Assembly (NCBI GenBank): GCA_963575745.1
Contig: CAUYUJ010004758.1
Span: 355,001 to 419,000, forward strand
Direction: 5' to 3'
From: Prorocentrum cordatum
Lineage: Eukaryota > Sar > Dinophyceae > Prorocentrales > Prorocentraceae
DNA: 64,000 nt
Shown here piece by piece: positions 13,222 to 54,580 of this stretch. Position 1 is the stretch's first letter; each line of letters begins with the position of its first letter. The notes beneath the pieces were generated by a model. That model saw nothing but the letters and a program-made list of their open reading frames with translations, did not search any database and was not told the origin of the DNA. The position numbers and the translations under genes were made by a program.

Positions 13222-13258
13222 CTTGAGCCAAAATGGCTTGAGCCAAAATGGCTACAGA
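13222..13258 (-). other. tandem dinoflagellate spliced-leader relict
   Basis: Read on the minus strand from 13258, the sequence matches the 22-nt dinoflagellate spliced leader (DCCGTAGCCATTTTGGCTCAAG in total) at 21 of 22 positions, the exception being T for the third base. It is followed immediately by CCATTTTGGCTCAAG, a leader lacking its first six bases. A new leader spliced at the AG inside an older leader (after CCGTAG) would leave exactly this arrangement, so the locus records two rounds of trans-splicing before genomic reintegration. Confidence 0.92.
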
Positions 13259-26857: not shown

Positions 26858-27050
26858 TGCGGACCAGACTTCTATGCGGATTCCTTCGCGGACACCTACG
26901 CAGATCCCAATGTGCACGGCGGCAGCGCCCGGAGCGCACTGGGGGGGGGGAGCGTTACGTCATAGGGGAGGGGAGGATCGGGGGCCATGACGCCCGTCAT
27001 GCCCCAAGCAATAAAGAAACGGGCCCTTGGAGAACATGCCGTCCAAGCGG
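25140..27050. repeat. large fold-back with mirrored minisatellites
   Basis: Nested inverted repeats share one centre. Outer: ATGACGGGCGTCAT at 25172 against 26987-27000, and ATGACGTAACGC at 25206-25217 against 26952-26963. Inner: ATGTAGGTGGCGATCTGC at 25317-25334 against 26579-26596 (17 of 18). Between the inner marks, a ~18-bp period minisatellite (GTGTACACCACAAC words) at 25335-25640 is mirrored by GTTGTGGTGTACAC words at 26060-26578. The outermost flanks also match loosely: the minus-strand end near 27030 reads GPFLYCLGHDGRH and the plus-strand end near 25155 reads NAFFLCSAMTGVM. An open frame at 26960-27628 on minus ends here and may be a decayed gene. Confidence 0.7.
26775..26858. repeat. 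(GAC)n microsatellite
   Basis: Pure GAC tract of about 28 units, poly-Asp in one frame. Confidence 0.97.
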
Positions 27051-27963
27051 CCGCAGGTCTCGACGGCGCACGGGACGACGGCTTGGCCGCCCTTGTCTAA
27101 ATACCAGCGTTCCCTGCACCGGACGCCCTCCGCACCGACTGCGCACAGCGCCACGGCACGCCGAGGCCGCTGGGGACCTCGCCAACCCGCGGCAAACCGG
27201 AGCAGGGGCCACGCCGACCAGCAGGGGGGAGCACCCCGGCACCTCTGTTCCACGTGGGACCGCTTCGGCCGACGGGCGGCTTCGGACACCAAGAGGCCGC
27301 CAAGACGCCAAAAAGAGACCCCAAGAAACCTCAAGATGCCCCCCCAAAGCCTCCAAGCTGCGTCCAAGAGGCCCCCGCGGGGCCCCCCACGGGATCCCAG
27401 CGAATATCCAAAAGGCTTCATGCCCACGACCCAGGCGCGGCGCCCTGCACCCCGCTGGTTCCCCCCCGCCCTCTCCTCCAGCCACGGGGCCCGCCATCCC
27501 TGCCAACGCCAGGCGGGGCGCCCAGGCCCCCCACACACACAAATCCCAGCGCTCCTCCAGCCGACCAGCAGCTGCCTTCTCAGCAGGGCTGCTCGCCCAT
27601 GTTCCGCCTCAGCCAGGGCAAGCATCACCTCTTCGGCGGAACCTCAGGCCGAAGGGGCTCCAACAGCCAGTGGGGGAGCGCCCCTGCACCTCTGCGCCTG
27701 GCGGGGCAACATCGCCCAGCATGGCGGCTTCTGGCCCTGCACCCCGCCTGGTCGGAGGCTTCAACCTCCCCCCACCTCTGGCCAGGGGGTCTCCATCACC
27801 CAGGGAGGGGGCGGCCCGTATAGGGGTCGCAGCCGCGCAGCCATTTGGCCAAGCACTGCCGCTCCGTCTTATCACGGTTTCTGTCTTACGAGCAGTACTC
27901 ATTTCATTACTCATCAACATAATATTATCATTTCTTATCAATATCATTTGTTGTTGGTATGTA

Positions 27964-27969
<6 letters not shown>

Positions 27970-28000
<31 letters not shown>
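27970..28000. repeat. (TA)n tract at the element border
   Basis: A TATATA run ends exactly where repeat B2 of the tyrosine-recombinase element begins, suggesting insertion next to or within a TA microsatellite. Confidence 0.85.
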
Positions 28001-28005
<5 letters not shown>

Positions 28006-28140
28006 CCTGCCTGCACCTTCCCCGCCAGTCGAAACCTTTTCTGTGTGTGGTCGGAGGCGATCCGCCTCAGCTGGAGGCGTGACGAGCCGACGGCACCTGT
28101 TTGATATCATACAAGGGCCACAGCACGCACACACACACCA
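28001..28140 (-). repeat. split direct repeat B2 (terminal)
   Basis: 140 bp, identical to 28263-28402 except one base (GTCGAAACC against GTCGAGACC). It forms the downstream end of the element on minus. Confidence 0.93.
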
Positions 28141-28187
28141 TAGCGCTGAGAGAGTCGAACGGGGCAGCAGAGCCAAGGGAGGGAGGG

Positions 28188-28264
28188 AGAGAAGACTACG
28201 GAAGCGCTGTGCCGCTTAGCGGCGGTCGGGCTTGCCTAGATGATTCACGTGCGAGCACTTACAT
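28188..28264 (-). repeat. split direct repeat A2 (internal)
   Basis: 77 bp, identical by eye to 34251-34327. Its border overlaps B1 by two bases (AT), so A2 and B1 abut as expected for the internal junction of a split-repeat element. Confidence 0.93.
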
Positions 28265-28402
28265 CAGCCTGCCTGCACCTTCCCCGCCAGTCGAGACCTT
28301 TTCTGTGTGTGGTCGGAGGCGATCCGCCTCAGCTGGAGGCGTGACGAGCCGACGGCACCTGTTTGATATCATACAAGGGCCACAGCACGCACACACACAC
28401 CA
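28263..28402 (-). repeat. split direct repeat B1 (internal)
   Basis: 140-bp partner of B2. It lies just downstream of the last coding frame, with ~218 bp of 3' noncoding sequence between. Confidence 0.93.
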
Positions 28403-28620
28403 AAACTATGGAAGCGCTCACGATGCCAGAAATACTGCTGGCCTATAGGCCGAAATTATACAAAGCGAGGGCTCTTTTGTTGGCAATGGCATTAGCGAAA
28501 CATTGACATAGCTTAGCACACATCTTATTGGGGTAAGGCTCGGCGATAGATGTCAGAAACTTGTTGTCCTGCCTACCGCGTAGAATCATATGGGGCCTAC
28601 CAGTACGAGTACAGATTCCT

Positions 28621-29265
28621 TTACACGAGCGGCACCGTCTCTCGGCATCGCTCAAGTCCACAAAAAGGGAAACAAAACGGGTTCGCTTTCTCCAGGGCTT
28701 TCCCCATTGACAGAAATCGGTGACGAATTCTTGGGCCTCTGGCCACTGTCTTATGCGGAGGAAGGGAGGAGAAACCCAGAGGCGCGAGGAGTGGGGGTTC
28801 TCGAGCACTCCCGGGATGCGCAACCGTTTGCACAACAAAAAGATGGAGTGACAGAAACTCATCATTGTATTTCCTTCTTTGACTTTCCTTTGATCTGCGA
28901 GAGAGAGAGAGACCGGGCAGGCCCATCACGTGTTCAGCATTTCTCAAGGCGGGCGGCCCGCTGTTGTCTGACCTGCGGGCAGAAGACCAGCTCGCACATA
29001 GAAGACCGATCCATACTGCTCGAACCATGCCTGCCATGAGCCATCCACGGATAAGTTTTTGATTGCCCGGCTTCAGCAAATCGAACTGGTCGCCATACTT
29101 GATGTCCCATTCGAAGATGGGTATCCCTTTCAAGAAGGACGACTGGCGCCACGCTTGCGAGAAGTGGCCGCTGCCCGAGAAGAGCTCGAGCGCGACGCCT
29201 CGTCGTGACCGCCTGGCAGAGGCGCTGAGCAGCCGGAGAGGATCGCACCAATCCGTTCTCGGCAC
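28621..29265 (-). other. methyltransferase-like domain of the YR retroelement
   Basis: In element order, the last ~215 codons begin RRGVALELFSGSGHFSQAWR. ELFSGSG resembles the SAM-binding motif I of class I methyltransferases; GLLCASWSSARR occupies the place of a catalytic Pro-Cys loop, with Leu-Cys here. Methyltransferase domains are known in DIRS-like elements (usually adenine-type) and cytosine methyltransferases have been captured by some protist retrotransposons. Which type this is cannot be told from the motifs, and the substitution of Pro leaves activity open. Confidence 0.6.
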
Positions 29266-32200
29266 CTGCGGGCGGGCTGCAGCTGCTCGGACGACAGGCG
29301 GCGCAGCATCTCGGTCACGCGGCCTCCTTTCTCGTAGCGCCTCATGCTGGCACTGCTGAGCCACCTTCTCCTTTTTTGAGCCTCGGCGATCGGCCGTCGC
29401 CCACTCGCCACCTCGTGGCTCACCCCGCCGTGGCGCAGCTGGTACAGATGAGCCACGCCCCGCGGGCCGTACCCCAAGGTCTCCACCGCCTTGGCGAAGC
29501 CGTTCGCGTACTCCACGTACGTCATCGGGAACAGCATCCCCTTGGAGCGGCTGAGGAGGTAGGCCCACGCCTGGTCCAGGTCGTCGTACTCGGTGTTGTC
29601 GAGGACCATCGCCTCGTCGAACACGCCAGTCTTGCTCGGCTGTCCCAACTCTTGGCGATGGAGCAGCACGCTCCACCTGCCCAGCCCTCCCACGCTCTGG
29701 GGAAGAGGTGGCACCGGCTCCTCCCGGCAGAGCGACCGCACATCGCACGGGCGGAGGTAGAGCACGAAATGGAGCAGCACGGCGATCGGCATGTACCAGG
29801 GGACCCCCATGCACACCATCTCGTTGGCGATCGCAGCCACCTTCAGCAGCGGGATGGGCAGCCCCGACCGCTCGGGCGCTATCTTGCAGCACCCGATCTG
29901 GGCCCGCCGCGCCCACTGCAGCTCCACGCCCGACTTCGACACGTCGAGCCAACGGAAAGCGGCCGCCGCCCTCGTCTTGCTGAAGTCGCTCGTCGAATGG
30001 CCCTCGAAGAAGAGGAAGGTCGAGTACCTCGCCAGCGCCGCGTCGCGCTGAGCCAGCGTCCGCAGCTCCAGCTGCTCGGCCGCCGCCCAGCGCTCGAACT
30101 CGTCCATCAGAGCGTTGCACAGCGCCTCTACGGGCTTCGACACCGAGCGGGGCTCCAGGAAAGTGCGGCCCTCCGAGGACTGGTAGGCCTTCGCCTCGGG
30201 ATGGCGTGCCCTCCTCTGGGCGGCCCGCTTGGCCTTCGCCTCGGCTGCTGCTGTCGGCCTCCGACTCGCTGAGGTCGCAGCGGCCGCCGCTCGGCTGGGC
30301 TGCCCGCTGCTCGCCGCGGGCGACGCTGTCGCCGCCAGGGAAGGGCGGCGCAGCATCGCGCTCTGAGTTGCCTCGGTGTCCCAGCCTCGGGCTGCCTGAA
30401 TCGGATCCAAGACGTGGTACGGACCCGAGGAAATGACGATGTAGTGTTGATGACGTTGATGGTGGTGCATATATACGTGATGGCTCATCTGCTGGGTTTA
30501 GCTCGCTCATGATCCATCGTACGCTTGGCATAACATTGGCTCCGAGACATAGTGCGCTCCATTGTCTGCAGATGCGATTCATAGGTGATGACGACGATCT
30601 CCCCTTTGAAAACATTAGAGCGATACTCATAGCGTCGACGATGAACAAAAGCTTTTTGCCAAAAGACCTCCGACGTCGGAGCTGGTGCTTCAGGGCCCAG
30701 AGGACCGCTCTAGCCTCGAGCAGGGGCATGTGTTCGGACTTCCACCAGCGGCCAGCAGACACAACTCTCCATTCGCCTTTCATGAGTTCAGGGCTGATTT
30801 CTCTGAAGTCTGAGGAAGGGGTACAGCTGTCTGGCCATTGGTTGTCCTTGTCCTGCGATCGCAGCCTGCTTTGTTGCAGCTCGCAGTGCAGTCGAGCCCG
30901 GGCGCCGAGCTCCTCACTCTTCGAGAAGCGCCAGCGCTCGCTCACCCGCCCGGCAGCTGCAATGAGCGGCACCGCCCGTTCCCCCTCTACGACGCCGCGG
31001 CCCCACGGCGACGCGTCGCTGACACAGACAGTGTCCGACCACGCTGCCCCGAGATCACGACGCAGCAAAGGGAGTAGAGAGGACGCCCATTTCAACTCCC
31101 TCCTGACGGCAGGCCAAAGTGCAACCTCTCGCTCACGATTCTGGCTGACGAAGGCATAGACGGCCCCGAAGACTGCCAGGAACTCCCGGCGCAGCAAGCC
31201 CACGAAGGTGAGGTGGCCTATGATGATCTCGATCACGCGGCCCGACACCCTCGGGCGGCGTAGCACCTCCTGGATGCCCAGCCGCAGCCGCCAGAGGCGA
31301 AGCCGACTCGGCCCCACCAGGCTGGCGTCGGTCGCGAACTCCCAGCCGAGCGAAGCGCCGCCCTGGCTCACCTCGACCCCGTGGGTAGGGAGCCCTTTCG
31401 AGCGGAACAGGGCGTCCACCCGCCGAGCAGCCTCAGCCACAGGGCCTTGCTCGCCAGCGTACGCCACGAAGTTGTCCACGTACTCCGTGTGCACCATCGG
31501 CTGCATGGCTGGCACCTCGGCCCCGTCGGACATCCTGTTGGCGGGTGAGATCCCCTCGATCTTGTCCACCATCGCTTCGTGGATGATCTGACAGGCCATC
31601 AGCGCTTGATTCCACCCCATCGGGATCACCTTCAGGCATGGAAACACGACCCCATCACCGTCTCCACCAACGTCGCGGGCTCGCAGGCGAGGAAGGGCGA
31701 AGTACCCGCGGAACTCGCTCGGGAGCTCCAGCGTGTAAAAACAGTTCACGATGTCCACTCCGCCCAGCCACACGGGCTCGCCTGCGTCGACCTCAAGCAT
31801 GGCGAAACTTTGGCCCGTGGCCAGCTTGACGTCTGGTGGGTCAGCAAAATGAGAGTTGGCCCATCGGGCATCAATGATCATACGTTGTCTGCCGTCTTTT
31901 TTGTGGACTGCGAACACACCGACATCCTCCTCGCGGTGCGCCCTGTACTCGATAAGACCGCACGCCTCAAGCCGCTTCACCAGCTTCAAGTATTCACGGC
32001 GATTACGAAGGCGAGGATCCGTGAAAACCTTCTTCACTCCCGAACTCGACTTACGCTGCTCCGCCTCCTCTTTTGGCAAGAGCTTCTCCTGTAGGATCCT
32101 TGTGACTTCCACACCAGCTGGCTCATCCAGTTCCAAAAGAGGTACCGCTCGGTGACCCCGCTCAGGAAGCGCCAGACAGTCAACATCAAGGCTGGCCAGG

Positions 32201-32607
32201 GTCGCGGGCTCGCCGTCGTAGCCCCGGCTCGCCGTCGTAGCCCCGGCTTCCTGGCCTGAAAGCCCAGGAGGGGGGCGACCCACCTCTTGAGCACACGAAG
32301 GAAGACGATCGAGCACCATCTGCTGGCTCTCGGTGGCCTGCGCCCCCAGCGCGCCGCGGTATTGCGGCCCAGCACTCATCTCGTTGAGCGACTCCACCAT
32401 ATCGCTCGCCCATTTCAGCTCGTGCTGGCGCGCATGGAGGCGCTGGCGTGAGCGTCGTGACAGACTCGGCCGTGTCGACGCTGGAAAACTGGATGGCCCC
32501 TGGAACACATCAGGCAGCGGGAACAGGTCGCGCTGTCGACCGTCAGCGGCTGGCACTCCAAAACCGTAGGCAGCCTTCATGTCCAAGGACGCGGCAGCCG
32601 CCCGCAT
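28621..32607 (-). CDS. reverse transcriptase-RNase H polyprotein with terminal methyltransferase-like domain
   Basis: A single open frame of 1328 codons from ATG at 32607. The RT core spans about residues 195-420: GVFAVHKKDGRQRMIID, VDIVNCFY (284-291, motif A), PMGWNQA (329-335) and YVDN (376-379) where most RTs have YxDD. RNase H follows with VSDASPWGRG (D531), E631, IVDAM (D658) and LNPADEPSR (D707), a complete D-E-D-D set. Residues ~712-1110 in this frame are low-complexity and are the out-of-frame reading of the recombinase. From ~1115 a natural protein resumes: ALELFSGSGHFSQAW (SAM-binding-like motif I), GLLCASWSSAR and GPPALRNAEHVMGLPGLSLS. RT and recombinase frames differ by +1, recombinase and methyltransferase by -1, so the domains are either made from separate starts, by frameshifting, or after splicing. 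Confidence 0.85.
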   Translation of the reverse strand: MRAAAASLDMKAAYGFGVPAADGRQRDLFPLPDVFQGPSSFPASTRPSLSRRSRQRLHARQHELKWASDMVESLNEMSAGPQYRGALGAQATESQQMVLDRLPSCAQEVGRPPPGLSGQEAGATTASRGYDGEPATLASLDVDCLALPERGHRAVPLLELDEPAGVEVTRILQEKLLPKEEAEQRKSSSGVKKVFTDPRLRNRREYLKLVKRLEACGLIEYRAHREEDVGVFAVHKKDGRQRMIIDARWANSHFADPPDVKLATGQSFAMLEVDAGEPVWLGGVDIVNCFYTLELPSEFRGYFALPRLRARDVGGDGDGVVFPCLKVIPMGWNQALMACQIIHEAMVDKIEGISPANRMSDGAEVPAMQPMVHTEYVDNFVAYAGEQGPVAEAARRVDALFRSKGLPTHGVEVSQGGASLGWEFATDASLVGPSRLRLWRLRLGIQEVLRRPRVSGRVIEIIIGHLTFVGLLRREFLAVFGAVYAFVSQNREREVALWPAVRRELKWASSLLPLLRRDLGAAWSDTVCVSDASPWGRGVVEGERAVPLIAAAGRVSERWRFSKSEELGARARLHCELQQSRLRSQDKDNQWPDSCTPSSDFREISPELMKGEWRVVSAGRWWKSEHMPLLEARAVLWALKHQLRRRRSFGKKLLFIVDAMSIALMFSKGRSSSSPMNRICRQWSALCLGANVMPSVRWIMSELNPADEPSRIYAPPSTSSTLHRHFLGSVPRLGSDSGSPRLGHRGNSERDAAPPFPGGDSVARGEQRAAQPSGGRCDLSESEADSSSRGEGQAGRPEEGTPSRGEGLPVLGGPHFPGAPLGVEARRGAVQRSDGRVRALGGGRAAGAADAGSARRGAGEVLDLPLLRGPFDERLQQDEGGGRFPLARRVEVGRGAAVGAAGPDRVLQDSARAVGAAHPAAEGGCDRQRDGVHGGPLVHADRRAAPFRALPPPVRCAVALPGGAGATSSPERGRAGQVERAAPSPRVGTAEQDWRVRRGDGPRQHRVRRPGPGVGLPPQPLQGDAVPDDVRGVRERLRQGGGDLGVRPAGRGSSVPAAPRRGEPRGGEWATADRRGSKKEKVAQQCQHEALRERRPRDRDAAPPVVRAAAARPQVPRTDWCDPLRLLSASARRSRRGVALELFSGSGHFSQAWRQSSFLKGIPIFEWDIKYGDQFDLLKPGNQKLIRGWLMAGMVRAVWIGLLCASWSSARRSDNSGPPALRNAEHVMGLPGLSLSRRSKESQRRKYNDEFLSLHLFVVQTVAHPGSAREPPLLAPLGFSSLPPHKTVARGPRIRHRFLSMGKALEKANPFCFPFCGLERCRETVPLV
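29130..30488 (-). CDS. tyrosine recombinase of the YR retroelement
   Basis: An open frame of 452 codons from its own ATG at 30488, overlapping the end of RNase H. The first ~100 residues are Ala/Arg/Lys-rich. Residues 110-230 form a SAM-like, DNA-binding-type helical region (YSTFLFFEGHSTSDFSKTRA). The catalytic part has VLYLRPCDVRSL (box I Arg246), HLYQLRHGGVSHEV (Arg352, with Tyr349 in the place of the HxxR His, and His353/His358 nearby), RRRWLSSASMRRYEKGG (Trp376 and candidate nucleophile Tyr385). This matches the R...(H/Y)xxR...(H/W)...Y set of phage-integrase-type recombinases. It would join the cDNA circle to the genome. The tail after ~400 is Arg/Ser-rich and overlaps the start of the methyltransferase-like frame. 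Confidence 0.85.
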   Translation of the reverse strand: MSHHVYMHHHQRHQHYIVISSGPYHVLDPIQAARGWDTEATQSAMLRRPSLAATASPAASSGQPSRAAAAATSASRRPTAAAEAKAKRAAQRRARHPEAKAYQSSEGRTFLEPRSVSKPVEALCNALMDEFERWAAAEQLELRTLAQRDAALARYSTFLFFEGHSTSDFSKTRAAAAFRWLDVSKSGVELQWARRAQIGCCKIAPERSGLPIPLLKVAAIANEMVCMGVPWYMPIAVLLHFVLYLRPCDVRSLCREEPVPPLPQSVGGLGRWSVLLHRQELGQPSKTGVFDEAMVLDNTEYDDLDQAWAYLLSRSKGMLFPMTYVEYANGFAKAVETLGYGPRGVAHLYQLRHGGVSHEVASGRRPIAEAQKRRRWLSSASMRRYEKGGRVTEMLRRLSSEQLQPARRCRERIGAILSGCSAPLPGGHDEASRSSSSRAAATSRKRGASRPS

Positions 32608-32682
32608 GGGCGAGGGAGCAAGAGTCCCCTCGCCAAGAGCCCGATCAGACAGGAGGCCTGATCGGGCGGCCTTCTCGTAGGG

Positions 32683-33951
32683 CTAGCGGCCCGCCGCGGC
32701 CCGCTCCTCGCGGGCCTTGCGAACCTGCTTGAGCACGCTGGCGTCGCGCTCCACCTCCTTCGACACGTAGTCCAGGAGGTCGGGGGCCACCATGATGTCC
32801 CCGAACTCCTCGTGGCCCCCCATGAAGATCTGGGACTCGTCGTAGAGCCCCACTCGCATCAGGCCGCCGCGGCCCTTGCCCTTCTTGTCCTTCTTCTCCT
32901 TGCCGTCAGCCTCGGCGCCGTCGCTGGACCTCCTGCCGCCGCCCACCTCGGAGTAGCTGTACTCGATGAGTTGGGCCTTCCTGATCACCAGCGCGAAAGC
33001 CCCCAGGTTCACGATATCAAGGGCGTCGCAAGTGAGGGCCAAGTCCCCGGCGTGCATGATCATGAGATGCTCACCGACGGCCCTAAACTCGGCCTTGAGG
33101 CCGTGCGTGTGCTCCCAGAAACGGTGCCAGTCAATGGCACCTCCATTGCGACGATTGGTGAACTTCAGGCACCACAACGTCGCGTGAGGGCCTGGCACCG
33201 GGAAGTCCGCGAACTTCACCTCCTGCACGGCCTCCGCTGCCGCTCGGAACAGCGCCTTCACTCTCTGCCCACCGATGGTCGTCACGGTCATCAGCCGCGC
33301 GTCGCCTACCGCCTCCGCCCCCGCGAACTCGATCTCACCACCAGGCGGTACGAAGGCGAGCAGCACCCACTGCGGCGGCACCCCCTGCTCCTGCATAGCA
33401 CGTGTGCCCTGCACAATGGCCTGTGGCAAGAGGGCCACCGCCTCACCGCGGCGAAACCCAGCCCGTGTATCGACTGCCAGCCAGCTGCCTGCTTCGCCCT
33501 GGGCGGGCGCGGGTGCAGCACCTGCGGCGGCGGCCGCGCCAGGCGCGGGCGGCCCAGGAGCAGGCGCGGCGGATGGCCCTCCCGGCGGCGTCGCGCTGCC
33601 GTGCACCAGCGCGGGGAGCGGCGCCACCGTAGTCTGCAGCGCCAGGGCGTGGGCGGTCGCCTCACCCGTCCACTGGGCGATCTGAGCCGCCGTCGGAGCG
33701 GCGACGAACCTGTAGCACATCGCCCTCGTCGCGCCGGGAGGAGGCGGCCACCGCTGCGTCGTGAAGCGGATCCCCACCTCGTCTGCCTTGGCAGGACCAT
33801 ACTCTTCATCATATACCTGTCCGTCTAGCGTGACAATGAGCAGACTAGTCGCCGATGACGCCAGCACGCCGAGCAGCAGCCTCTGATGCCACAGGACCTC
33901 CGGCATCGCGTACCATACGAAGGCACAGGCTACCGCCGCCTGCACCGCCAT
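32683..33951 (-). CDS. first ORF (gag-position) of the YR retroelement
   Basis: A 422-codon open frame from ATG at 33951 that ends 75 bp before the RT frame starts. The N-terminal ~45 residues contain hydrophobic stretches (AVACAFVWYAMPEVLWHQ and LLLGVLASSATSLLIVTL), suggesting membrane association. A Pro/Ala-rich linker lies around residues 110-155. The remainder looks folded (WVLLAFVPPGGEIEFAGAEA, ATLWCLKFTNRRNGGAIDWH, HGLKAEFRAVGEHLMIMHAG), with a Lys-rich patch near 350 (KEKKDKKGKGRGG) that could bind nucleic acid. Its position, before RT and within the split repeats, is that of Gag in retrotransposons, but I see no capsid or zinc-knuckle motif. An open frame overlapping its start (to about 34129) also carries a hydrophobic segment, so the true N-terminus may be longer after splicing or a shift. 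Confidence 0.7.
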   Translation of the reverse strand: MAVQAAVACAFVWYAMPEVLWHQRLLLGVLASSATSLLIVTLDGQVYDEEYGPAKADEVGIRFTTQRWPPPPGATRAMCYRFVAAPTAAQIAQWTGEATAHALALQTTVAPLPALVHGSATPPGGPSAAPAPGPPAPGAAAAAGAAPAPAQGEAGSWLAVDTRAGFRRGEAVALLPQAIVQGTRAMQEQGVPPQWVLLAFVPPGGEIEFAGAEAVGDARLMTVTTIGGQRVKALFRAAAEAVQEVKFADFPVPGPHATLWCLKFTNRRNGGAIDWHRFWEHTHGLKAEFRAVGEHLMIMHAGDLALTCDALDIVNLGAFALVIRKAQLIEYSYSEVGGGRRSSDGAEADGKEKKDKKGKGRGGLMRVGLYDESQIFMGGHEEFGDIMVAPDLLDYVSKEVERDASVLKQVRKAREERAAAGR

Positions 33952-34250
33952 TGCACACGAAGCCGAGGGCGACGAACGTCGAGCTGGCCCCGAGCAGCAG
34001 GACCGTCCAGGCCCACAGGCGGTTGTTGCCCGTCAGCACCTCGGGATCGCTCACCCCGCACGTCGGCCCGCGGAGCGGAGGCGCGCCTGGGCACGCTGGC
34101 CCGCCGGGCACGGCGGGCAGGCGGGGCACGCGGGCACCGCAGGGCAGCTACCCGCCGAGACTATGGCGGCGATGCCCAACGATCGAACAATCTCGTAAAG
34201 AAAAGGTTCAGCCCGAGATCCATGCCATCTGAGGCACCGCTTTGAACCCC

Positions 34251-34327
34251 AGAGAAGACTACGGAAGCGCTGTGCCGCTTAGCGGCGGTCGGGCTTGCCT
34301 AGATGATTCACGTGCGAGCACTTACAT
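34251..34327 (-). repeat. split direct repeat A1 (terminal)
   Basis: 77 bp, identical to 28188-28264. It forms the upstream end of the element on minus and begins ATGTAAGTGC in that orientation. Confidence 0.93.
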
Positions 34328-34764
34328 ATAGTTGTTCCGATATGTTGCATATGCCGGCATCTTCCTAAGGTGAGTCATACTGCTTATTATAGCCAGTGGT
34401 CGCCTGAGCCGTTGGCGGAAACGCACCCTGGCACTGCGCCTCCAGACCCTCAACGCGGCCGCTGCCCCCTGGCATGGCGAAGCCCCGCAAAGGCGGCAGA
34501 CGGCGTACGGTATGCAGGTCTGGAGCACATGCCCAAAGTCCGCCACGCCTTGGTCCTCTTCCCTACGAGCAACAGCCTGATATCGGCGTCATGTGCCTGT
34601 GGCTGGCGGGCTGCGGGAGCGCTCGCGCCAGCCATTGTCGCTCCCATCGTCAATCCGGCCTGCGTCACCGTCCAGCGCAGCCCCGCTACGGTCGCTGCCA
34701 CTAGAGTCACAGCCATGTGGAGCCCCGCCGGAGCATTTTGGCCCCGATCGCCGCTGTCAACCGT

Positions 34765-34990
34765 GGAGGAGGAGGAGGAGGACGGAGGAGGAGGAGGAGG
34801 AGATGGAGGCGGAGGAGGAGGAGGAGGAGGAGGAGGAGGAAGAGAGGGAGGAGGAAGAGGAGGAGCAGGAGGAGGAGAAGGAGAAGGAGGAGGAGGAGGA
34901 GGAGGAAGAGGAGAAGGAGGAGGAGGAGGTGGGGGGAGGAAGAGGAGGAGGAGGAAGAGGAGAAGGAGGAGGAGGAGGTGGGAGGAGGGA
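34765..34990. repeat. (GAG)n microsatellite
   Basis: Long GGA/GAG tract with few interruptions, poly-Glu/Gly/Arg by frame. Flanks at 34330-34760 and 35000-35600 contain no gene I can support. Confidence 0.95.
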
Positions 34991-35659
34991 GACCATCCCC
35001 CCCCGCAGGGGAGAGGCAACCGCCCCCGGCACGGCTCCGCGCCGCGGGTGGCTGCGCAGGTTCCGCGTCGGCCTCATCCGGTGGGTCCCCCCCTGCCCCA
35101 TCCAGGGTGATCTCGTCCACCTCGTCGGCCATCCTCCCTGCCTCCGACGCGCCGCCCTCTGCCTCGGCATGGGCGTGTCTGGCAGCACGCCCTCTCGGCG
35201 GTGGAAGAGCTGTCCGTCACGACGGAGTTGGGGCCATCACCATCCTCCGGAAGGAGCAGACCTGCACATCCGGCGCCCCTAGCCCGTTCTGCCTCGTCAC
35301 CCGCCTCCCAGGTTGGGACCTGCTGATATCGGTCGGCGCTCTTGCGCCAGATGCAGTTATACAAATATACGTGCATTCGCTTAACGTCTGATCAGGTAGC
35401 GTTGTACACCCACAAGTAGCGTTGCACTCGCTCAGAGGATGATGTAATCGCATAGGTTGGATAGCTTAGTCGCAGGCGGCCCAACTAACCTAGCGCGCAT
35501 CTTGGACGCATTCTGCACTTCGGCTACTTGTAACTTCTGACGCTGCCGATATTTATCGGACTTACCATCTAACTTACGTACGACTTATCTTACTTATGGG
35601 ACTTACTATGTAGCCCCGAAAATGCTCAGCGGGGGTTGCCTCGCCCCCACATTCCAATC

Positions 35660-39140: not shown

Positions 39141-39240
39141 NNNNNNNNNNNNNNNNNNNNNNNNNNNNNNNNNNNNNNNNNNNNNNNNNNNNNNNNNNNN
39201 NNNNNNNNNNNNNNNNNNNNNNNNNNNNNNNNNNNNNNNN
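39141..39240. other. assembly gap (100 N)
   Basis: Exactly 100 N, a conventional scaffold gap of unknown true size. It separates a GGGCGG-rich border from a TG-rich tract, so the order of the two sides rests on scaffolding. Confidence 1.
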
Positions 39241-39895
39241 GCGTGTGCGTGTGCGCGTGTCGTGTGGCGTGTGGGTGTGCGTGTGCGCGTGCGTATGCGT
39301 GTGCGCGTGCGTATGCGTGTGCGTGTGGCGTGTGGCGTGTGGCGTGTGGCGTGTGCGTGTGCGTGCGCGCCTGCGCGTGCGTGTGCGTGTGGCGTGTGGC
39401 GTGTGGCGTGCGCGCGCGTGTGTGTGTGTGTGTGTGTGTGTGCGTGTGTGCGTGTGCGTGTGGCGTGTGGCGTGTGCGTGTGCGTGTGCGTGTGCGTGTG
39501 GCGTGTGCGTGTGCGCGTGCGTGTGCGTGTGCGCGTGCGTGTGCGTGTTAGGTGTGCGTGTGGCGTGTGCGTGTGCGCGGGCGTGTGCGTGTCGCGTGAG
39601 GCGTGTGGCGTGTGGCGTGTGCGTGAGCGTGTGCGTATGCGTGTGCGTGTGCGTTGCGTGTGCGTGTGCTGTGCTGGGCGTGTGCGTGTGCGTGGTGCGT
39701 GTGCGTGTGCGTGTGCTGTGCGTGTGCGTGTGCGTGTGCGTGTGTGTTGTGTGGTTTGTGTGTGCCGTGTGTGTGTGTGTGTGTGCGTGTTGTGGTGGTG
39801 TGTGTGTGTGCGTGTGTGCGCGTGTGTGTGTGGTGTGCGTGTGTGTGTGTGTGTGTGTGTGCGTGTGTGCGCGTGTTTGTGTGTGTGCGTGCGTC
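39241..39895. repeat. GTGTGC / GTGTGGC minisatellite
   Basis: Nearly pure GTGCGT and GTGTGGC words to about 39890, followed by ~85 bp of the CCAAGATGGCC word (39897-39985) and a C homopolymer. Confidence 0.95.
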
Positions 39896-40973: not shown

Positions 40974-41059
40974 CTGGCGAAGAGCCCAACCGCATGCAAT
41001 TGAGGGTACCGCGTGGTGGGTGCCGCCTTCGGTGGAGCTCCCTATGCTGCCACGACCCG

Positions 41060-41872
41060 CGTGAAGGAGCGTGCCGACGTGGGGCGGGGCCGCCATGCGA
41101 ACCCTGCCACTGGGGACTTCGGTGGAACTCCCTCTGAGGCCACGAACCGTGCGAGGGGTGTGCCGAAATGGCCCGAGGCCGCCATGCGAACCCTGCCGCT
41201 GGGGCCTTCGGTGGAGCTCCCTATGGGGCCACGGTCCTCGTGAGGGGTGTGCCGAAATTGCCCGGGGCCGCCATGCGAACCCTGCCGCTGGGGCCTTCGA
41301 TGGAGCTCCCTATGGGGCCACGGTCCTCGTGAGGAGTGTGCCGAAATGGCCCGAGGCCGCCATGCGAACCCTGCCACTGGGGCCTTCGGTGGAGCTCCTA
41401 TGGGGCCACGGTTCTCGTGAGGGTGTGCCGAAATGGCCCGAGGCCGCCATGCGAACCCTGCCGCTGGGGCCTTCGGTGGAGCTCCCTATGGGGCCACGGT
41501 CCTCGTGAGGGGTGTGCCGAAATGGCCCGAGGCCGCCATGCGAACCCTGCCGCTGGGGCCTTCGGTGGAGCTCCCTATGGGGCCGCGATCCTCGTGAGGG
41601 GTGTGCCGAAATGGCCCGAGCGAGCCCTGCCACTGGGGCCTTCGGTGGAGCTCCCTATGGGGCCGCGATCCTCGTGAGGGGTGTGCCGAAATGGCTCGAG
41701 GCCGCCATGTGAACCCTGCCACTGGGGCCTTCGGTGGAGCTCCCTATGGGGCCACGATCCTCGTGAGGGGTGTGCCGAAATGGCCCGAGGCCGCCATGCG
41801 AACCCTGCTACTGGGGCCTTCGGTGGAGCTCCCTCTGGGGACACGAAGCGTGTGAGGGGTGTGCCGAAATGG
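41060..41872 (+). repeat. 89-bp satellite array 1
   Basis: About nine tandem copies of an 89-bp unit whose landmarks are GAGGGGTGTGCCGAAATGGC, CGAGGCCGCCATGCGAACCC, CTGGGGCCTTCGGTGGAGC and CCTATGGGGCCACG. Successive GAGGGGTGTG starts at 41153 and 41242 give the period. One unit near 41620 is shortened. The stop-poor unit yields spurious open frames on both strands. It is followed by a GAT tract at 41873-41960. Confidence 0.95.
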
Positions 41873-49789: not shown

Positions 49790-50310
49790 TGCCCCATACG
49801 GAGCTCGGGAGCTCCACCTATGGCCCCAGTGGCGCAGCCCGCATGCGGCACGCGCCCCATTGAGGCACACCCCTCGCACGCTTCGTGGCCCCATAGGGAG
49901 CTCCACCTTAGGCCACAGTGGCGCAGCCCGCATGCGGCACGCGCCCCATTTTGGCACACCCCTCACACGTTTCGTGGCCCCATACGGAACTCCACCCAAG
50001 GTCCCAGTGGCGCAGCCCGCATGCGGTACGCGCGCAATTTTGGCACACCCCTCACACGTTCCGTGGCCCCATAGGGAGCTCCACCTATGGTCCCAATGGC
50101 GCAGCCCGCATTTCGTGGCCCCATAGGAGGCTCCGCCTTAGGCCCCAGTGGCGCAACCCGCATGCGGTACGCGCACAATTTTGGCACACCCCTCACACGC
50201 TTCGTGGCCACATAGGGAGCTCCACCCAAGATCCCAGTGGCGCAGCCCGCATGCGGCACGCGCCCCATTTTGGCACACCCCTCACACGTTTCGTGGCCCC
50301 ATAGGGAGCA
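49790..50310 (-). repeat. 89-bp satellite array 2, inverted and diverged
   Basis: About six copies of a unit with CCCATAGGGAGCTCCACC, GTGGCGCAGCCCGCATGCGG and TTTTGGCACACCCCTCACAC. Its reverse complement aligns with the units at 41060 and 51655 (GTGTGAGGGGTGTGCC, GGTGGAGCTCCCTATGGGGC) but with a different internal part, so it is a separate subfamily in opposite orientation. Confidence 0.85.
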
Positions 50311-51654: not shown

Positions 51655-54580
51655 CCGCGTGGTGGGTACCGCTTTCGGTGGAGCTCCCTATGATGCTATG
51701 AACCGTGTGAGGGGTGTGCCGAAATGGCCCGAGGCCGCCATGCTAACCCTGCCACTGGGGCCTTCGGTGGAGCTACCTATGGTGCCACGATCCTCGTGAG
51801 GGGTGTGCCGAAAAGGCCCGAGGCCGCCATGCCAACCCTGCCACTGGGGCCTTCGGTGGAGCTCCCTATGTGGCCACGACCCTCGTGAGGGGTGCTCCGA
51901 AATGGCCCGAGGCCGCCATGCTAACCCTGCCACTGGGGCCTTCGGTGGAGCTCCCCACAGGGCCACGATCCTCGTGAGTGGTGTGCCGAAATGGCCCGAG
52001 GCCGCCATGCGAACCCTGCCACTGGGGCCTTCGGTGGAGCCACCCGCAGGCCACGATCCGCGTGAGGGGTGTGCCGAAATGGCCCGAGGCCGCCATGCGA
52101 ACCCTGCCACTGGGGCCATCGGTGGAGCTCCCCACAGGGCCACGATCCTCGTGGCGGGTGTGCCGAAATGCCCGAGGCCGCCATGCCCTGGGGCCTTCGG
52201 TGGAGCTCCCTATGGGGGCCACGGTCCTCGTGAGCGGTGTGTCGAAATGGCCCGAGGCCGCCATGCGAACCCTGCCACTGGGGCCTTCGGTTGAGCTCCC
52301 TGTGTGGCCACGGTCCTCGTGAGGGGTGTGCCGCAATGGCCCGAGGCCGCCATGCGAACCCTGCCACTGGGGCCATCGGTGGAGCCCCCATATGGGGCCA
52401 CGATCCTAGTGAGGGGTGTGCCGAAATGGCCCGAGGCCGCCATGCGAACCCTGCCACTGGCGCCTTCGGTGGAGCTCCCCACAGGGCCACGATCCCCGTG
52501 AGGGGTGCTCCGAAATGGCCCGAGCCGCCATGCGAACCCTGCCACTGGGGCCTTCTGTGGAGCTCCCTATGGGGCCACGGTCCTAGTGAGGGGTGCGCCG
52601 AAATGGCCCGAGGCCGCCATGCGAACCCTGCCACTGAGGCCTTCGGTGGGCCCCCCCCTATGGGGCATCGATCCTCATGGCGGGTGTGCCGAAATGGCCC
52701 GAGGCAGCCATGCGAACCCTGCCACTGGGGCCATCGGTGGAGCTCCCCACAGGGCCACGATCCTCGTGAGGGGTGTGCCGAAGTGGCCCGAGGCCGCCAT
52801 GCGAACCCTGCCACTGTGGCCTTCGGTGGAGCTCCCTATGGGGACACGATCCTTGTGAGGGGTGTGCCGCAATGGCCCGAGCGAACCCTGCCACTGGGGC
52901 CTTCGGTGGAGCTCCTTTAGGGGGCCACGATCCTCGTGAGAGGTGTGCCGAAATGGCGCGAGGCCGCCATGCGAACCCTGCCACTGGGGCCTTCGGTAGA
53001 GCTCCCTGTGGGGCCACTGTCTTCGTGAGGGGTGTGCCACCCTGCCGCTGGGGCCTTCGGTGGAGCCCTCTATGGGGCCGCGATCCTAATGAGCGGTGTG
53101 CCGAAATGGCCCGAGGCCGCCATGCGAACCCTGCCACTGGGGTCTTCGGTGGAGCTCCCCACAAGGCCACGATCCGCGTGAGGGGTGTGCCGAAATGGCC
53201 CGAGGCCGCCATGCTAACCCTGCCAATGAGGCCTTCGGTGGAGCTCCCCACAGGGCCACGATCCTCGTGGCGGGTGTGCCGAAATGGCCCGAGGCCGCCA
53301 TGCGAACCCTGCCACTGGGGCCTTCGGTGGAGCTCCCTATGGAGCCACGACCCTCGTGAAGGGTGTGCCGAAATGGCCCGAGGCCGCCATGCTATCCCTG
53401 CCACTGGTGCCTTCGGTGGAGCCACCCACAGGGCCACGATCCTCGTGAGGGGTGTGCCGAAATGGCCCGAGGCCGCCATGCGAACCCTGCCACTGGTGCC
53501 TTCGGTGGAGCCCCCTTTATGGGGCCACGGTCCTTGTGAGGTGTGCTCCGAAATGGCCCGAGGCCGCCATGCTAACCCTGTCACTAGGGCCTTCGGTGGA
53601 GCCCCCCACAGGGCCACGATCCCCGTGAGGGGTGTGCCGAAATGGCCCGAGGCCGCCATGCGAACCCTGCCACTGGGGCCTTCGGTGGAGCTCCCTATGG
53701 GGCCACGGTCCCTGTGAGGGGTGCGCCGAAATGGCCCGAGGCCGCCATGCGAACCCTGCCACGGAGGCCTTCGGTGGAGCTCCCTGTGGGGCCTCGATCC
53801 TTGTGAGGGGTGTGCCGAAATGGCCCGAGGCCGCCATGCCAACCCTGCCGCTGGGGCCGTCGGTTGAGCTCCCCATGTGGCCACGACCCTCGTGAGGGGG
53901 GTGTGCCGAAATGGCCCGAGGCCGCCATGCCAACCCTGCCACTGTGGCCTTCGGTGGAGCTCCCTATATGGCCACGACCCTCGTGAGGGGTGCTCCGAAA
54001 TGGCCCGAGGCCGCCATGCTAACCCTGCCACTGGGGCCTTCGGTGGAGCCCCCTTATGGGGCCACGGTCTCCGAAATGGCGAGGCCGCCATGAGGGGTTC
54101 GGTGGAGCTCCGAAAATGGCCCGAGGCCGCCATGCGAACCCTGCCGCTGGGGCCTTCGGTGGAGCTCCCTACACGGCCACGATCCCCGTGAGGGGTGCTC
54201 CGAAATGGCCCGAGGCCGCCATGCGAACCCTGCCACTGGGGCCTTCGGTGGAGCTCCCTATGGGGCCACGACCCTCGTGAGGGGTGTGCCGAAGTGGCCC
54301 GAGGCCGCCATGCGAACCCTGCCACTGTGGCCTTCGGTGGAGCTCCCTATGGGGACACGATCCTTGTGATGGGTGTGCCGAAGCCCGAGCGAGCCCTGCC
54401 ACTGGGGCCTTCGGTGGAGCTCCTATAGGTGGCCACGATCCTCGTGAGAGGTGCGCCGAAATGGCGCGAGGCCGCCATGCGAACCCTGCCACTGGGGCCT
54501 TCGGTAGAGCTCCCCATGGGGCCACGATCCTCGTGCGGGGTGTGCCGAAATGGCCCGAGCGAACCCTGCCGCTGGGGCCT
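51655..54580 (+). repeat. 89-bp satellite array 3
   Basis: About 32 tandem copies of the same unit and orientation as array 1, with local deletions (for example near 52180, 54080 and 54390). Unit variants alternate (CCTATGGGGCCACG against CCCACAGGGCCACG), hinting at higher-order structure. The minus strand stays open for over 550 codons, which is a by-product of the unit and not a gene. Confidence 0.96.

Follow-up and report, generated by a model that had tools for sequence, protein, structure and literature searches.

The window, i.e., the whole stretch of 64,000 nt of Prorocentrum cordatum DNA that was analysed, holds a retrotransposon whose sense strand is the minus strand. Its open reading frames (ORFs) comprise a gag-like ORF1, a pol with reverse transcriptase (RT), RNase H and a C5-methyltransferase-type (MT) domain, and a tyrosine recombinase (YR) that lies in another frame inside pol. 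Coordinates are in Table 1. In the sense direction the order is A1, ORFs, B1A2, a 47-bp spacer and B2. An earlier note on this DNA had described the order A1-ORFs-B1-A2-B2, identical A copies, B copies with one difference and a two-base overlap of A2 and B1; all of this is confirmed, the A copies agreeing at 77 of 77 positions. The RT, RNase H and YR that it placed inside the element are borne out by relatives, by the fold of one relative (P0004) and by a YR model.

Thus the element displays the A1-ORFs-B1A2-B2 organization of split-direct-repeat YR retrotransposons of the PAT/Ngaro/VIPER type, together with their RT, RNase H and recombinase, the YR structure model being weak. Inverted terminal repeats with an internal complementary region, as in the DIRS1 type, are replaced here by split direct repeats, and in 27000-35500 inverted repeats of at least 25 bases are found only within the A/T run. 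It is confirmed that a dinoflagellate-like genome harbours a YR retrotransposon of the split-direct-repeat kind. The C-terminal methyltransferase-type domain, the nesting of YR in pol, the YxDN motif, the gag TAG with its hairpin and the A2/B2 spacer are additions to the earlier note.

Table 1. Features of the element and its border in the window
Feature	Position	Strand	Remarks
Whole element	28001..34327	-	arrangement repeated in 16 fetched copies, both outer ends in 14
A1, left terminal repeat half, 77 bp	34251..34327	-	identical to A2
ORF1, gag-like, first ATG 33951 to TAG	32683..33951	-	frame open from 34032
TAG ending ORF1, in frame with pol	32683..32685	-	
12-bp RNA hairpin, 15 nt after TAG	32639..32667	-	all 143 cells paired, 12 distinct sequences
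pol open frame of window copy (RT, RNase H, linker, start of MT)	28621..32682	-	
RT and RNase H	30487..32544	-	at least 15 relatives, best E 1.2e-123 among the matches listed
RT motif C, YVDN	31471..31482	-	profile aligned to YADD, YVDD of solved RTs
YR ORF, pol +1 frame, wholly inside pol	29130..30488	-	relatives P0016-P0020, Pfam match in P0020, nesting tests
C5-methyltransferase-type domain, two frames in window copy	28443..29190	-	tblastn to relatives, predicted fold in P0004
B1, internal B copy	28263..28402	-	1 difference in 140 from B2
A2, internal A copy	28188..28264	-	AT at 28263-28264 common to B1
Spacer A2/B2, 47 bp	28141..28187	-	
B2, right terminal repeat half	28001..28140	-	repeat comparison with B1
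Alternating A/T run flanking B2, presumed target microsatellite	27972..28000	not assigned	

Copies in the genome and their insertion sites

A 200-base query from the B2-A2 end was used to search the genome (4.13 Gb, 21,875 contigs). It gave 47 matches, and 18 places were fetched. Sixteen of these (L009-L024), with 91-98% identity to the window copy, are sister copies that each have two A and two B copies; L025 is a relative at 72-75% and L026 a fragmentary relative. Copies with the same borders, to which the earlier note had pointed as a check, are therefore present: both outer ends are kept in 14 of the 16. One base near an end is changed or missing in L018, L020 and L021, the last A1 bases of L013 are replaced by an A/T run, and L024 is without about 36 bases of the outer B2 end and the last A1 base. 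Three further matches at 95-97% (C7602, C13722, C15633) came from the RT search. Because 16 more copies in the same genome have the same arrangement, a chance arrangement is excluded.

When 900-bp flanks were compared copy against copy, one 85-bp match at 79% was detected and otherwise none; in L024 one flank matches the other. The flanks differ between copies, and the insertion sites are thus independent. A search with the right flank of the window copy matched only itself, and an empty site of this copy was not found.

Twelve of the 17 copies have identical A1 and A2, and in the other five the two are 1-2 bases apart. Between B1 and B2 there are 0-7 substitutions in each of 16 copies and 11 in L024 (gap columns 0-7, with 32 in L024). 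In L018, L019 and L021-L023 the A repeats share 92-94% identity with those of the window, yet show 0-2 differences within a copy, which is expected if the repeats are renewed in each round. L017 and L020, with 5 and 7 B1/B2 substitutions and a diverged outer B2 in both, fit such renewal less well, and may represent imperfect renewal or aged copies. The recent mobility proposed in the earlier note therefore finds support in the A repeats, set against a divergence of 2-9% between the other copies and the window copy, but less in B1 and B2.

The joints of 17 insertions were scored for runs of 8 or more bases in which A and T alternate, with points from the window and the copies' own flanks as background. 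Such a run is present at 13 of the 17 (the outer borders of L013 and L024 being assumed in this typing), against 302 of 93,780 background points (0.3%; binomial tail 9e-30). The insertions that miss it are L010, L016, L017 and L024. No target duplication beyond the A/T repeats was seen at the 17 insertions, where the repeats hide short ones.

In a wider search the RT query gave 17,653 loose first-look candidates in the genome, and 59 were scored. Among these 59, at least 20 match at 95% or more over nearly the whole query (the window included), and at least 7, with 52-53% RT identity and 1417-codon frames, represent a second family. Two members of the second family, L030 and L031, have gag, a pol with YVDN, GLPCNSW and ENP, and a nested YR of 445 codons. 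Their terminal sequences are different, but AT is again common to B1 and A2, and TA-rich flanks are found on both sides. Left flanks are also TA-rich in L025 and L026, and less regular in L027 and L028. No relatives were confirmed in viral_contigs and genome_contigs.

Coding regions, nested recombinase and selection

ORF1 shows 32-34% identity over two stretches with the N-terminal parts of P0011 and P0027, and its frame is open in 16 of 17 copies. The TAG and the CCCTACGAG after it are found at 19 of 20 aligned loci, L027 having TTG in place of the TAG, and also in L030 and L031. The 111-nt region around the downstream hairpin has a structure z-score of -4.05. Covariation in the hairpin is weak, with one pair changed on both sides and 78 of 500 shuffles as good. 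In L030, positions 2276-2294 (sense) hold an ATG just past the gag TAG, in the pol frame and at the hairpin base.

RT and RNase H folds are present in the structure model of P0004. Motif C reads Y[VAC]DN in 30 of the 31 RT hits among the matches listed, including relatives near 30% identity. P0036 is a gene model without motif C, and the YxDD strings of P0006, P0026 and P0029 are far from the motif. The D-E-D-D residues of RNase H are kept, with the exception of one gap in P0003. Of ten species-named RT hits among the matches listed, nine are from Prorocentrum cordatum and one is from Symbiodinium, which with the spliced-leader-like sequence at 13222 points to a dinoflagellate host, probably Prorocentrum. 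The RT and RNase H region is under purifying selection (dN/dS 0.13 in the 12 copies with an intact pol). The RNase H end of P0004, P0007 and P0022-P0024 resembles the Pfam hepadnavirus polymerase C-terminal domain, with only P0004 above the cut-off.

The YR frame lies wholly within pol, and by comparison with P0016 translation of YR likely starts near 30356. Across the 452 YR codons the pol frame has no stop, where 18 are expected with RT codon usage and 10 with YR usage; when synonymous codons were drawn, none of 5000 simulations for either usage was free of pol stops. The same nesting is seen in relatives. Of the 31 RT hits, 12 had their linkers decoded in the +1 frame, and these score 44-194 bits with a YR profile in 11 cases and 19.6 in P0034, a marginal value next to its shuffle maximum of 18.3. 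The other frame gives 11-17 bits, and 25 shuffles of each give at most 28. It should be noted that these 12 linkers are not 12 independent cases, because P0021 and P0022 are near-identical.

Among the sister copies the pol frame, 1412 codons, is intact in 12, and the YR frame, 455 codons, is open in 14 of the 17 copies. Selection was measured in L009, L011, L012, L014-L018, L020-L022 and L024, with 11 copies used for the YR and third frames. The dN/dS values are 0.15 for MT and 0.28 for the YR frame, indicating purifying selection on both, 1.47 for the pol frame over YR and 1.27 for the third frame. Thus the pol frame over YR is kept open but is not conserved in sequence, since it shows a dN/dS of 1.47 and yet no stops. 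Full overlap of the recombinase with pol, in which only the absence of stops is selected in pol, makes this a clean natural example of overprinting.

The YR structure model is poor (mean pLDDT 49.7), and its fold matches all have E > 0.001. A His is expected in the HxxR motif of tyrosine recombinases. It is found in P0020, but is Tyr in the window, P0011, P0013, P0016-P0019 and P0027, and Cys in copy L012. Pfam and NCBIfam gave no match with the YR and MT pieces of the window. Searched against PDB sequences, the YR alignment gave a single match, which was discarded as meaningless. Over 12 sequences, Mantel comparison gives r 0.88 between RT and MT distances and r 0.72 between RT distances and those of the pol linker, which overlaps YR; the position of the window differs between the RT and MT trees. 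These sequence distances suggest that a joining of RT, MT and YR by chance is unlikely.

The MT frame is broken in the window copy at a GA repeat (28899-28912) and is open in 12 sister copies. The C-terminal domain of pol is predicted to have a C5-cytosine-methyltransferase fold: the model of P0004 resembles M.HhaI, DNMT1 and DNMT3A. In this model pLDDT is < 50 over residues 954-980, where the catalytic-type Cys lies, and two Arg positions near 1055-1057 vary. PF00145 found no match at E up to 1 in the window pieces and 10 proteins, including the MT-bearing P0003 and P0004, nor at E up to 10 in 7 proteins, and among solved methyltransferases DNMT2 alone was matched in sequence, and weakly (E 0.095). 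Motif VI, usually ENV in C5 methyltransferases, is ENP here. That such a domain is missed by Pfam suggests that these domains may be undercounted in retrotransposons. CpG depletion by self-methylation was considered and rejected, observed/expected being 0.98 in the element and 0.95 in the rest of the window.

Proposed mode of transposition and relation to known elements

The following mode of transposition is proposed. An RNA spanning A1 to the 3′ end would be translated into gag, into pol and, from a second frame within pol, into YR, a mode of pol and YR translation that we infer. RT would copy the RNA, and the repeats would let the cDNA close into a circle, with the B1A2 join, presumed to be the circle junction, carrying the core AT. 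The MT-type domain may methylate this cDNA. YR would then swap strands between the AT of the circle and one within a microsatellite of alternating A and T, so that A1 and B2 become the outer ends and no target duplication can be detected. For the reading as a whole, i.e., a YR retrotransposon family with split direct repeats, gag, pol and nested YR, a circle and integration in AT microsatellites, a probability of about 0.8 is given.

Several parts of this reading have alternatives. It is possible, but doubtful, that ribosomes make gag-pol by reading through the UAG, aided by the hairpin downstream of it. In the window's family gag and pol are in frame across one TAG, the local structure is strong, and the hairpin pairs in 12 of 12 distinct sequences, but covariation is weak as given above, TTG replaces TAG in L027, and L030 and L031 keep the TAG with its following sequence and a hairpin of different sequence in place with pol in another frame, as also appears to be the case in L025. 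Because pol is in a different frame in L030 and L031, in-frame readthrough was dropped as a rule for the clade. The different pol frame, with an ATG just after the TAG in both, favours termination-reinitiation or an internal start, which are no less likely than readthrough. A different doubt concerns RT, which might be dead or nearly so, the copies being mobilised in trans by a YxDD relative. Retroviral RT is reported to be inactivated by mutation of either Asp of YxDD (PMC554778), and D211N in the Ty1 RT to retain polymerase activity in vitro with loss of transposition (PMC2148107); moreover the relatives were found, among the matches listed, from a YxDN query, so that a YxDD relative could be missed. 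However the low dN/dS of RT, an Asn retained in 30 of 31 hits among the matches listed down to about 30% identity, no YxDD at motif C in any of these and the kept RNase H residues make a dead RT quite improbable. RT is probably active despite YxDN, and the activity of this motif can now be tested in a natural multi-copy case under purifying selection.

The AT-microsatellite setting could likewise reflect survival or assembly and not target choice, since insertions are tolerated in simple repeats, which are also difficult to assemble, and the A/T scoring covered YR-element insertions alone as element class. This is very unlikely, because two families whose termini otherwise differ both have AT as the core common to A2 and B1. 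With 13 of 17 insertions at A/T runs, against 0.3% of background points, AT microsatellites appear to be the target of integration. Integration in (AT/TA)n microsatellites is described for some endogenous nimaviruses, via a DDE transposase, and integration in telomere repeats through YRs is known (PMC10871703). As to identity, the A-ORFs-B-A-B layout in dinoflagellates is already published as SymbioDIRS-Dnmt3 of Symbiodinium, with Dnmt3 in pol (PMC5890265), and the element could be a plain member of that group. The repeat order A-coding-B-A-B, the RT and cytosine MT in pol, the separate YR ORF and the dinoflagellate host are all shared (PMC5890265), and the MT model is like DNMT3A as well as M.HhaI and DNMT1. 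The YR of the window, however, lies within pol over its full length, between RNase H and MT, and YxDN and AT-microsatellite sites are not mentioned in the available text of that account (PMC5890265). The published DNMT domains were named by PF00145, which finds no match here, so the MT may not be Dnmt3 in spite of its predicted C5-MTase fold. The weak DNMT2 match and the ENP of motif VI in place of ENV also set the element apart from SymbioDIRS-Dnmt3 as described, and plain membership is unlikely.

Among other known systems, the worm elements Cer7-Cer12 are LTR elements of the Pao/BEL type and are not known to have a YR. They are reported to have the same YVDN at RT motif C, with activity there left undecided (PMC554778). 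From the assignment to a Ngaro/PAT type in the earlier note, the split-direct-repeat YR architecture stands. Ngaro has likewise A1-ORFs-B1A2B2 split direct repeats (PMC9210276, PMC8547959), but fits poorly because it is described, in the parts available, without a methyltransferase domain (PMC3266345, PMC9210276), whereas an MT-type domain is found in pol of the relatives and sister copies of the window element. The same absence of MT, in the available description, separates VIPER (PMC3266345) from the window's clade. PAT-like elements share split direct repeats, YR and RT/RNase H (PMC3266345, PMC6681497), but the MT of DIRS is described as of the N6-adenine type (PMC3783388), in contrast to the C5-cytosine fold predicted here. 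DIRS1-like elements have a long YR/pol overlap in half of 28 elements and no target duplication, but their terminal repeats are inverted and the catalytic part of YR is in a non-overlapping 3′ end, whereas here it is fully overlapped (PMC3266345). In a limited search of partly available literature, complete nesting of YR, an MT of this kind, YxDN and AT-microsatellite targeting were not found described in YR retrotransposons. The chances are about even that these elements form a large unnamed dinoflagellate group of YR retrotransposons, with a working YxDN RT, a YR overprinted on a disordered linker before a cryptic C5 MTase, and AT-core circle integration into AT microsatellites.

Elsewhere in the window, a tandem sequence at 13222-13248 (+) resembles the spliced leader (reverse complement of the leader's end), as would be left by a reinserted copy of a dinoflagellate mRNA. 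A run of 100 N at 39141-39240 is an assembly gap directly before a GT-rich array (39241-39891). Satellite arrays of 89 bp are present at 41025-41872, 49807-50309 and 51674-54559, and the array at 49807-50309 appears opposite in orientation to the others.
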